Source of the DNA: Guyanagaster necrorhizus
Lineage: Eukaryota; Basidiomycota; Agaricomycetes; Agaricales; Physalacriaceae
Reading direction: 5' to 3'
Assembly: GCF_019112545.1 (NCBI RefSeq)
Contig: NW_025064886.1
Location: forward strand, 994,490-1,058,489
Length of the DNA stretch: 64,000 nucleotides
This document shows positions 42,686 through 46,700 of this stretch, piece after piece. The translations under genes and the position numbers were made by a program. The notes below the pieces were generated by a model that was not told the origin of the DNA, ran no database searches, and worked only from the letters and a program-made list of their open reading frames with translations. Position 1 is the stretch's first letter. Each line of letters begins with the position of its first letter.

Positions 42686-44592
42686 CTACTCGTGGTGGTC
42701 AGCCAATGTCATCTCGTCAAAGTCCTCCAACAAGTCCTCCAGCCTGACCTCCGGGAAATCGGCCTCTTCCTGTTCGTCGTCAGTTTCAACGGCAGGCGTT
42801 TCGTCCACATCCATCGCATATTGATTATTCCGCTTCCCTCTAGCCCTCTCTTTGTCTGATTTCATCTGCACGTCCCCGGCCTTGTATAGATTCACCGCCC
42901 CTCTAATCTCTTCGTCTTCCTCGATATCCCGAAGGAACAACTCGTAATCTTCCTCGACCTTCTTTTGATCTCTACCTCCCATCCGTCCCACCACCCCTCG
43001 TCCACTCCCAGTCTCTCCCTCCTCTCCAGCCTCTTTGCCAATACTCCTCAACTTCCAATTTCTGGCCTTGTTCTTCTTGCGTCTGTTCGGATAAGTCTTC
43101 TTCACCAATATTATGTCTGGTATCCGATCAGAGGAAAGCTCTGCGAAATCATCCGAGTTCAAGTTCGCGTTCGTCAGGTGGTATCCTAGGACGGTATCCC
43201 CTGCCTGAAGGATCGCCCCAAGATGCGTCCGTGTATGGAATATCTGATTTGTAAAGCCACTGCTCTCGTAGTCCATCATGCCGTCGTCATCGGTGTTCAT
43301 ACCTCCGGATCGGAAGGCACCAGCGAGGGCCACTTGGGCGTCAGCGAGGACGTACTTTCCCCGAGACCGGCCATCGGGCTCAATGTCGAGAACAGTAAAT
43401 TCCACGAGATCGGACACAGTCGCAAGGGAATCGAAGGGTGTGCGCCAATACGTGGGTGCCGTGATTTCGCAGGCTTGAAGAGTAGATGGATCGAGAAGCT
43501 GAAGCGAGTTCCCGACGCGGGTACAGAGCGTCAGGGGATTTATATTGGCCAGTTGTCGTGCTTGCTTGAGCGGGATACAGACGAGATCATCTTTACATAC
43601 GGGAACAATCTCAACGGAATACGTATACTTGAAGTTGGCGGTGTTACTGTGAGTATCAGACGACAACAGTTGTTCCGATGCTTTTTGACTATAAAAGACG
43701 TAAGAATGAGTTGCAGCGCTAGTTAAAAAAAAACTTCTCAGACCGGATAGGCACGACTCCACCTAGGAATTCAACCATCTTAAGGGCATGACTACGCTGG
43801 CTGTAGAAGAAATCAAGACCATCCCGAACTTCCTTGACAGAGATTGTGTCCTTCTGAGTACCGTGCTTCAGAATGAGCTGCTCTAGGAACAAAAATGTCC
43901 GTTTGTGTGTAACTTTCTGTCGCACTTGAACAAGTGCTTTCCAAGTGTTTTTGGCGGCAAGTTTTGCGCAATCGGGACATTGTCCATGCTGCACCAGGTA
44001 CTCTACCTCGAACGTCTGCTCTAATATGGTGTTTGTGAGGACCTGAGCATACGTCAATACTAAGACGAATCCATCAGAGAAAATGCGATTGCACCTCCTT
44101 TTGAATAGTCAATGACACACGCAGCCGTTTGGAATGCGGCTCGGTCCATATGAAGTGTGCCTCTGTCAGCCGCACCTTACTCAGACCTTTCAGCTTTTTT
44201 AGGCAGATAGCGAGCAACTCGGAGGATTCTGGTCTAGCAAGCATCCATGACTGAGGCGGCGCGAGGAATCGTTCACAGTTTCGACAGAATGATACGGATG
44301 CTAACAGGAAGAATTAACTTTCCAAGATATTAGTTGGTACTGAAATATAATGCACCTTGCTTGGGGATGCCTTCGGTGATATCTTGCCTGATAAAATTAG
44401 ATAGCGGGCACAGAAGTTTGAGAAGACACGCACGTATTCCGTAGGCACGCTACACATAGATTGGCAGAATTAGGGACGATGGGCGTTCCTACAAGAGTTT
44501 AGTTCATCCTGTTTTCTATTCGTGCAAAAGTGGTTCTCACCACAGTCCGCACATAGGACTCTATGCACTGGTGGTGCAGCGACAAATTCCAT
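42686..44592 (-). CDS. NMD3: 60S ribosomal subunit export adaptor Nmd3
   Basis: Nmd3 binds pre-60S subunits and carries a nuclear export signal recognised by Crm1. The start at 44592 gives MEFVAAPPVHRVLCADCG, then spliced exons supply CVACLRNTQDITEGIPKQ and SVSFCRNCERFLAPPQSW, the N-terminal Cys4-type zinc clusters. Following are QCPDCAKLAAKNTWKALVQVRQ, then KYTYSVEIVPVCKDDLVCIP and DLVEFTVLDIEPDGRS. The C-terminus is acidic and leucine-rich (VRLEDLLEDFDEMTLADHHE), as expected of the export-signal region. An intron around 43690-43745 restores PIRQKASEQLLSSDTHSNT. There are at least five introns. The promoter side of this gene is directly bordered by the CpG-free transposon relic. Confidence 0.96.
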
Positions 44593-44673
44593 CCGATTTG
44601 CCTTGAAAATGCTAGTAATCTATAATCAATGTTAAGAGAGGTGGACCACTTGCTTAGTAAACGGAAAAATGCG

Positions 44674-45664
44674 GCCATTTCCATGCCATGGCCCATTGTG
44701 ACTGAGTTTGAAAATATCAATGCACTGCCACCCACCCTTTATGCCACCTTCAAGAGACCTGCATTGCTATGGGTTTGCTGGAGGTATGATCACTTTTTGT
44801 GATGCTTCTTCTCTTCTGTCAGCCAGAAAAGCCAGATTTGCTGTGAGAACAGCTCAAAGAAAACATATGTGATGATCTGGCATACAAGCTTCACCAGCAT
44901 GATATTTCCAATCTGACAGAAGTTCAGCTCTATGATTTTGACCTTCATCTCACCAACAAGCTTCTTCAATCTCATGGCTGACATCTTTCTGAATGGACTC
45001 AGATGCCTGTCTCTACTATAGACTGGGCTGCCTATGAGGACAACTCTCTTTTGGCAGCATAGCTGATATATGACATTCCATCTCTGCAGTGATTGGTCAC
45101 TGATAATCTTCAAACCTTCATTGTGGAGTGCATGAGGCTTACAATATTGTGATTGAGTCAGTTGCTCACCAACAAGAGAGATCAGTATTTCTTCATAGTG
45201 CTGGAGATGGTGGAAAGACATTTGTCTGCAATACTATTGCTGCTGCAGTCCATGCTCAATGACAGATTGTGTTGACATGTGCTTCCTCCAGTATATCTGC
45301 AGTTCTCTTAGCTGGAGAATATACAAGCCATAGCACCTTCAATTCTATCATTTAATGATACAACATGCAGTATTTGCAGAGGGTCTCACTTGGCTGAACT
45401 TCTTTATTGGACTGTGCTCATCATTTGGGATGAGGTTCCTATGCAGAATCAACATGACATTGAGACTAGATTGTACTCTTCATGATATTTGCAATAATGA
45501 GGCACTTTTTGGTGGAATCACTGTCTTATTTGGTGGTATGTTTTACCTGCCTCCAGTCTGGCATTTGGATGTTTAGTCATTCTCTATGAAGTACACTGCT
45601 CTATGATTGAATAGAAAGAAGCATCACCTTCACCTATGTCAGTATAGCAACCTGGATCCTGAAG
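44674..45664 (+). mobile_element. Helitron helicase relic, CpG-free
   Basis: Plus-strand translation in broken frames matches the Helitron Rep/helicase C-terminal (Pif1-like) part. First comes NLTEVQLYDFDLHLTNKLLQ (from about 44910), then a Walker A block SAGDGGKTFVCNTIAAAV (from 45197), then LIIWDEVPMQN (45417-45449), and LFGGITVLFGG after a frameshift near 45450-45500. Stop codons interrupt several frames, for example TGA at 45260. No Rep nuclease domain or element ends were identified, so this is a 5'-truncated dead copy. Reading 44674-45664 base by base finds no CG dinucleotide at all, while TG and CA are abundant. The flanks regain CpG at once (44672 and 45665). Confidence 0.85.
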
Positions 45665-45669
45665 CGCAT

Positions 45670-46700
45670 GACATCAAATGGGTCTATGTAGTACCTGGTT
45701 TGAATACATTGGAAAACTGAATTCTTGTCCAGTGTTCAGTGACAAGACGACAATGGCACAGAAAATGTCGGTACAGGAAAAGGAAACCCTGGTATATGGA
45801 TCTTCGTGGCTTCTTATGTCCAGCGGAATCTTGTGTCTGGAAACTTTGAGATGTCCAGCGACTTTGGTATCATGATTCATGATGTGGCCGACCTCATGAC
45901 CATCTTAACGGTCATATCAAAGGACGCTATGACCCCTTCCTCCCCTCTGACCTCTGGACTGTCAGTATTCACGGCTTCTCTATCATTCACAACGAAATCA
46001 AGGGTGCAGGTATCCCCATAGCGAATGTCGCCGCTCGAAGGTTACACTTTGGGGGTCAAAGTCTTGCTGGTGGTCAGTTGCCGCTGATAACGACGCCATC
46101 CACTTTTGACTGGTGGAGTGCGGAAACGACAGTTCCTGCTGTACGTTTTGTGTACGACGGTCGTATCGCATTGCTCCCATAATGATGTTCTTCATGTCAA
46201 TAGTATGAAGTAATATCAAGGGGTCTTAAAACGACAATAAGGATGTCTCATTCAACTTGGATTGAAATGCGCTGAATAAATGTCAGACGTCGAAATCAAA
46301 GAACGAAGTCCAAGACAGAAAAACAAGGACGCGTATTATCATGCACCGTGAGATGATTCCTTTCGATCCCTTGAGGCGCACTGAAGGGAATACTAGGCGT
46401 CTTTCCCTGACTTCACTAGCATGGTTCGAGAGTTCAAACTCCTGCGTCTCGGGGCTTCAACTTCCTCGTCGATCGTGCCACCACCATCACATCAAGTTCT
46501 ACGACGGTCGCTCATGGAGAATCAACTCAGTTGGAACTTGCAATTGAACGCATCACTTCTTTCACTCATCTCCGTGCATCCGAAGCCTACCACAGAGCAA
46601 TATAACCCCTCATCCTCTGTGAGAGCTATTCAGAGCATTTACCCCGATCAAAACTAAGGATCCGAACAAAAAGTTCTTGCCAGCGCAATCAGTCCATATT
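45670..46700 (+). pseudogene. coding-like fragments of unknown origin beside the Helitron relic
   Basis: From about 45880 to 46182 one plus-strand frame stays open for about 95 codons (with WTVSIHGFSIIHNEIKG, then ANVAARRLHFGGQSL and VPAVRFVYDGRIALLP) and reads like the C-terminal part of a protein, but it lacks a start in frame. A second coding-like piece lies at about 46440-46600 (LELAIERITSFTHLRASEAY). I do not recognise either. They could be gene fragments captured by a Helitron or remains of a host gene broken by insertion. Confidence 0.3.

Follow-up and report, generated by a model that had tools for sequence, protein, structure and literature searches.

CpG-biased C-to-T change linked to methylation has been described in transposons of Microbotryum, Melampsora and Puccinia (PMC4352252), and Gypsy elements of Microbotryum are reported to have recently expanded despite RIP-like hypermutation at TpCpG (PMC5381629). 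CpG methylation in Agaricus bisporus was found to match annotated repeats nearly perfectly (PMC7473861), repeats of Marasmius oreades were described as far more methylated than the remaining DNA (PMC9674265), and Armillaria bulbosa has been tabulated at 4.34% 5mC (PMC7862722). DNMT5, two DNMT1 and DNMT2 are given as the usual Agaricomycete set of methyltransferases (PMC13297926, PMC7862722).

CpG loss is thus known in kind for basidiomycetes; in the genome described here it is unusually complete and fast. We analyzed a window of 64 kb from Guyanagaster necrorhizus (C7:994490-1058489 of a 53.3-Mb assembly in 109 contigs) that holds a single CpG-free block. The seven best relatives of a 932-aa protein encoded in the window, at 68-73% identity, belong to Armillaria and Desarmillaria, which places the host among the armillarioid agarics. 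Our best explanation, to which we assign a probability of roughly 0.8, is that the block represents part of a dead Helitron helicase, lying in a genome that hypermutates the CpGs of its transposons by a process coupled to methylation.

A CpG-free block and the dead helicase within it

A direct count found no CG in positions 44674-45664 (991 bp, no strand assigned). The bordering CpGs start at 44672 and 45665, leaving a gap of 993; no other CpG gap in the window exceeds 152 bp. The window as a whole contains 3,502 CpGs (observed/expected ratio, o/e, 0.95), a rate at which about 54 would be expected in the block (Poisson probability of none ~3e-24), and 2,000 shuffles of the block's own bases averaged 43.3 CpGs and never fell below 26. 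TG and CA were in excess, at o/e 1.64 and 1.60. An earlier, sequence-only reading had noticed the missing CpGs, those just outside and the abundance of TG and CA, and the counts bear it out on each point. It had also called both borders sharp. This holds on the left, where CpGs at 44580, 44594, 44662 and 44672 run up to the edge; the right edge is softer, with a lone CpG at 45665 and the next only at 45748. Likelihood borders (3 log units) were 44673-44732 for the left edge and 45608-45744 for the right, and a two-state segmentation assigned 44673-45747 (again unstranded), with the one CpG at 45665, to the CpG-free state.

Protein homology identifies the block as a piece of a dead PIF1-type helicase. 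Of seven protein relatives found, six (P0043-P0048) aligned by tblastn, and the homology spans 44712-45543 on the plus strand; it is interrupted by frame shifts, by a gap of about 20 codons and by six stops in frame, five of which are TGA. The part upstream of the ATPase (44712-45119) lacks its ~20 codons near 44785 and carries TGA at 44787, 44844, 44979 and 45090 and TAG at 45060. It is followed in a shifted frame by 45137-45340, with TGA at 45260, and by 45342-45540, with a frame shift near 45466; we take these to be the Walker A region and the Walker B region and beyond. A profile search matched PF05970 at 45134-45352 (E 1.9e-11) and at 45357-45464 (E 7.9e-4, alone below the Pfam cut-off). 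Two relatives are named from Armillaria ostoyae, one as an ATP-dependent DNA helicase, and Pfam recognized PF05970 in P0043 and P0044 and no family in P0045, P0046 and P0048.

The fragment very probably derives from a Helitron, because it joins a PIF1 domain to an upstream region that we take to be Helitron-type. The sequence-only reading had equated the whole block with a Helitron relic; the dead PIF1 helicase supports this, but the homology is narrower than the block, the CpG-free stretch running ~39 bp beyond it at the left end and ~121 bp at the right. Helitrons start with TC, end with CTRR and a hairpin, and insert between A and T; only a helicase fragment has been recognized in the window relic. 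Among the matches listed for the HUH Rep domain (PF14214), none lies in the window. Because the fragment is truncated, this absence bears on its completeness and not on its origin. The sole Rep-domain match listed genome-wide, C55:89-598 (L013, L014), has two stops and belongs to another CpG-free stretch, which runs to 2212. PF05970 matches on C24, C4 and C16 (L005, L006, L008; CpG o/e 1.01-1.05) were set aside as probable host helicases.

The genome gave one other DNA-level match, at C55:47416-48285, which is 75% identical over its main part and is likewise a broken, CpG-free PIF1 helicase. Since a limited first look at the genome found no intact copy of the window Helitron at DNA level, comparison with intact Helitrons was replaced by comparison with Armillaria helicase proteins and with LTR elements. 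Where the protein relatives have arginine, the window reads CAN/TGN in 7 of 10 columns, AGA in 2 and TAT in 1, and the C55 copy reads CAN/TGN in 18 of 31, AGR in 11 and AAG in 2; neither has a CGN codon. Some of the columns counted stem from alignments that overlap in another frame.

The window and C55 copies differ by 8.0% transversions and show 13 reciprocal TG/CA sites, against 5.8 expected given that both lack CpG (P 0.003), while a control on RY steps gave 5 against 5.7 expected. A raw test of independence (13 against 3.4) was dropped in favor of this conditional one because the absence of CpG itself links the columns. Part of the CpG loss therefore postdates the split of the two copies. 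The C55 copy is richer in TA (32 against 13 sites), a sign of further non-CpG change there.

Extent, spectrum and speed of CpG loss

The block has counterparts across the genome and is an ordinary member of its class. Among 20 systematic 1-kb samples, 5 had CpG o/e of 0.00-0.12 and 15 of 0.74-1.17, with none between, which does not support the earlier view that this element only had been treated. One of five arbitrary 10-kb samples was nearly CpG-free (C2:500001-510000, 11 CpGs), and along C55 1-120 kb 113 of 238 tiles of 500 bp stood at or below 0.3 and none between 0.3 and 0.6. The C55 helicase copy sits in a 42.7-kb stretch (6764-49457) with 92 CpGs (o/e 0.05); three large stretches of this kind had o/e 0.04, 0.05 and 0.11. 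GC content was 0.34-0.44 in CpG-free stretches and 0.47-0.52 in CpG-normal segments. A repeat search with three of the five CpG-free 1-kb samples placed those from C1 and C3 at no fewer than 40 sites each and that from C2 at 5 (query included). Genes appear spared, the window standing at o/e 0.95, although the CpG-free DNA is only partly annotated and could hold genes. What is striking is the completeness and speed of this class and not the single block, so that a one-kilobase oddity becomes a measured state shared by many genomic regions. A 4.5-kb CpG-normal island, perhaps a gene or a young insertion, separates two CpG-free stretches at C55:2213-6763 (L014). An apparent AT-rich dip in L018 was dropped, as Ns beside an assembly gap had been counted in the tile length.

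The mutation spectrum was read from reverse transcriptase (RT) copies, presumably Gypsy, of which 20 were fetched from 150 scored of 1918 candidates, a non-random choice by reading-frame state. Ten open copies held 26-33 CpGs in 486 bp (o/e 1.01-1.21) and ten copies with stops held 7-26 (o/e 0.29-1.06). At sites invariant among the ten open copies, the broken copies showed C-to-T at 48 of 240 CpG sites and at 37 of 590 other C (CpA 12/220, CpC 9/230, CpT 16/140), with T-to-C at 18 of 1870; leave-one-out among the open copies gave 1 of 246 at CpG. The fate of 120 CpG cells was balanced between strands: 59 remained CG, 25 became TG, 23 CA, 12 AG and 1 GG. TCG (14/60) showed no clear preference over other contexts (9/40). 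Stops occurred in 48 of the 150 scored matches as 49 TGA, 6 TAG and no TAA, the dominance of TGA being expected from CGA to TGA. The raw CpG/non-CpG ratio of C-to-T was ~3 in broken RT copies, where it includes non-CpG changes from subfamily divergence before death, and 22 in LTR pairs. The C-to-T change directed at CpG that the sequence-only reading had proposed is thus what RT copies and LTR pairs both display, and open copies, albeit of another family, are CpG-normal. In these comparisons neither of the two outcomes that it had named as refuting came about.

To this spectrum four LTR retrotransposons on C55 add a clock: their LTR pairs are flanked by 5-bp target-site duplications (one, by eye, with a C/T difference), and LTR differences date from insertion because LTRs start identical. 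The pooled pairs (1,590 aligned bp) showed 6 transversions, 52 non-CpG transitions and, at CpG sites, 22 reciprocal TG/CA, 6 CG against TG/CA and 3 shared CG. Assuming that hidden concordant losses equal reciprocal ones, that is, independent losses with equal TG and CA outcomes, we estimated ~53 original CpGs, with 11% left per copy at 0.2% transversions per copy. Long-term targeting, which the earlier reading had deduced from the total loss, is accordingly not needed, since ~89% of CpGs went within so short a transversion distance. The ratio of CpG C-to-T to transversions was 577 in the LTR pairs (265-1573, a range from the transversion count alone), 993 (643-1626) in 4,787 bp of three pairs formed by two copies of one element, which overlap the LTR set by ~0.4 kb of a single copy, and 4 (3-5) in a CpG-normal duplicate of 2,064 bp, a reference consisting of a single pair. 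In the LTR pairs non-CpG transitions, too, were some tenfold in excess of transversions' pace (26.7 against 2.8). For the CpG-free elements of C55 (L014-L024), CpG methylation alone fails to explain this excess.

For the Helitron pair, we simulated 8.0% transversions split evenly between the copies under assumed background rates (60 runs per setting). Zero CpG first appeared when CpG changed at 30 times the rate of other C-to-T (3% of runs) and reached 33% of runs at 80 times; an uneven split of transversions would lower the excess required.

Edges were examined at one LTR element on C55 (element A). On its left, CpGs are dense to 92835 (92786-92835), the LTR begins at ~92854, its first 70 bp hold three CpGs, and none follows 92922. 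On its right, the few hundred bp past the LTR are CpG-poor (105858, 105997) and then dense. At this element, as at the window block, loss stops ~0-300 bp from the element end. Taken together, the loss is CpG-biased, falls on both strands, respects the element's limits at the edges inspected and occurred independently between copies at many sites; retrotransposon copies show it in degrees, and it far outpaces transversions.

Methyltransferases and competing explanations

A genome profile search for DNA_methylase gave six matches in five loci: one DNMT5-like, two DNMT1-RFD, one DNMT2-like (C4:1.73 Mb) and one unclassified C5-methyltransferase. At the C16 locus the domain is flanked by two pieces, both matching a single chain of 2,348 residues, PDB 7r76 (E 3e-42 and 1e-84), which its depositors name DNA repair protein Rad8 and which we take to be Cryptococcus Dnmt5. 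On C8 and C2, catalytic and replication-focus domains ~2.4 kb apart indicate two DNMT1-RFD genes. CpG o/e was 0.93-0.96 at four of the loci. The fifth gene of the family, at C4 ~2.21 Mb (L037 1170-2362), has the lowest value of the five, 0.75. Among length-limited candidates its best relatives come from Desarmillaria (75%) and Armillaria (40%); five more are weak and lie mostly on short contigs. It is possibly a lineage-specific methyltransferase or a transfer. RID/Masc1 was not identified among the five loci, of which this one is unclassified, and TET/JBP demethylases gave no match here, although the control genomes gave none either. The earlier statement that some basidiomycetes methylate transposon CpGs is well founded, being documented in A. 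bisporus and M. oreades, and CpG methyltransferases are encoded here.

We therefore favor, as the best explanation, methylation-coupled hypermutation of transposon CpGs. Transposon DNA would be CpG-methylated and maintained so by DNMT1-RFD and DNMT5, with gene DNA largely unmethylated; on both strands, C-to-T change at methylated sites would by far outpace the mutation of genes, and it would end close to element ends. It would run until almost no CpG was left, so that the maintenance enzymes lose their substrate. The intermediate would presumably be 5mC, and the speed could come from weak repair of T:G after its deamination or from enzyme-driven conversion. Methylation of transposons would thereby account for the specificity, symmetry and borders of the loss, and the window block likely lost its CpGs in place. 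Some observations sit badly with this explanation: the excess of non-CpG transitions in the LTR pairs, the raw ratio of only ~3 in broken RT copies, and one LTR pair whose 7 reciprocal sites all point the same way, as random loss on two strands would rarely produce. That pair is C55 27143-27606 and 46458-46921 (L016, L018); the other pairs differ.

Vertebrates mutate methylated CpG at a roughly tenfold excess, and ordinary slow deamination of methylated CpG at such a rate over a long time would fit the spectrum and strand balance, the age of the Helitron copies (75% identical, 8.0% transversions), the gradation among RT copies and their raw ratio of ~3. We consider it unlikely, since a tenfold excess, simulated to 0.04 transversions per site in each lineage, leaves ~16 CpGs per 991 bp, the near-equilibrium o/e would be ~0.24 and not the 0.04, 0.05 and 0.11 of the large stretches, and the LTR pairs show CpG/transversion ratios in the hundreds; human CpG depletion itself is given as about five-fold (PMC13297926). 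Strict RIP, premeiotic, sensing duplication and mutating in bursts, has on its side the speed relative to transversions and the raised non-CpG transitions, which resemble a hypermutator, the repetition of the CpG-free samples, and the LTR pair with 7 of 7 sites in one orientation. It is nonetheless improbable. RIP is described as acting on duplicated DNA above ~80% identity, but the CpG-normal 2,064-bp duplicate, at 87.6% identity, retains 139 CpGs per copy, and the open RT copies, which include two at 99% identity to each other, hold CpG o/e of at least 1.0. Among the nine pairs in the orientation test (one of them the 7/7 pair, for which no z exists, and one with too few sites), the 7 with a computable z showed no clustering (-0.70 to 1.40). 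No RID gene was identified, though one C5-methyltransferase is unclassified, and RID-dependent RIP is described in PMC4352252 as reported only from Ascomycota. The earlier reading had offered methylation with deamination or a CpG-directed RIP-like process: its CpG-directed loss stands, and duplication-sensing RIP lacks support. A one-strand mutator was also set aside, given the lack of strand runs in 7 pairs, though one LTR pair lies wholly in one orientation.

Alternatively, the fragment might have been emptied in a CpG-free compartment and then moved here, its sharp borders being insertion joints. Large compartments of this kind exist (C55 6764-49457), and the fragment is truncated and isolated amid CpG-normal DNA. 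This too seems rather improbable: the 13 reciprocal sites mean that it is no late copy of the C55 one, and on the left of element A, whose target site is duplicated, the border is about equally sharp. Chance is ruled out by the expected count and the shuffles, and an assembly or sequencing artefact is rejected as well, because the changes fall on arginine codons of a protein family known in other genomes, differ between copies, and coexist with CpG-normal transposon copies in the same assembly; with no point found in their favor, we regard either origin as next to impossible.

Methylation-coupled hypermutation of transposon CpGs thus remains our preferred explanation. In a stronger form, which we advance only tentatively and would not bet on as a whole, it would be a CpG-directed hypermutator of marked transposons, distinct from ascomycete RIP, blind to duplication as such and ending near element borders, that outruns the transversion clock by a factor of hundreds and leaves relics hardly methylatable by DNMT1-RFD or DNMT5. 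The unclassified C4 methyltransferase would be a candidate part of it. If this stronger form is true, silencing of the relics would have to rest on something other than 5mC. The near-total loss itself raises the question of how relics stay silent once almost no CpG remains to methylate.

Comparison with known systems

Neurospora crassa RIP is, like the process seen here, a C-to-T hypermutation of repeats, but it targets CpA and senses duplication (PMC5381629), neither of which we see. The Microbotryum Gypsy elements also have a CpG-containing target hypermutated in transposons; there, the target is a trinucleotide and 1.7 of 35 sites are affected per copy (PMC5381629), whereas here old copies lose nearly all CpGs. 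Rhizoctonia solani AG8 shares the CpG-to-TpG bias in an Agaricomycete, with TGA as the expected stop product (PMC4014442). In that case genes and repeats are described as similarly affected between nuclei, unlike the separate CpG-normal and CpG-free DNA found here.

As in A. bisporus (PMC7473861) and M. oreades (PMC9674265), methylation bound to repeats would explain an element-bounded loss. In those two species methylation was measured, and what we have here is only its likely mutational shadow. The A. bisporus repeat clusters are described as having no rise in AT (PMC7473861), in contrast to the lower GC of CpG-free DNA in this genome. With the fungi of PMC4352252 this genome shares a CpG signature in transposons and a Masc2/DNMT1-type enzyme; in neither was a RID gene identified, one C5-methyltransferase here being unclassified, and methylation followed by deamination was proposed there, as it is here. 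The bias reported for them touches part of the copies (40% in M. violaceum, 10% in the rusts; PMC4352252), whereas in this genome stretches of 1-43 kb are nearly CpG-free and the distribution is bimodal.
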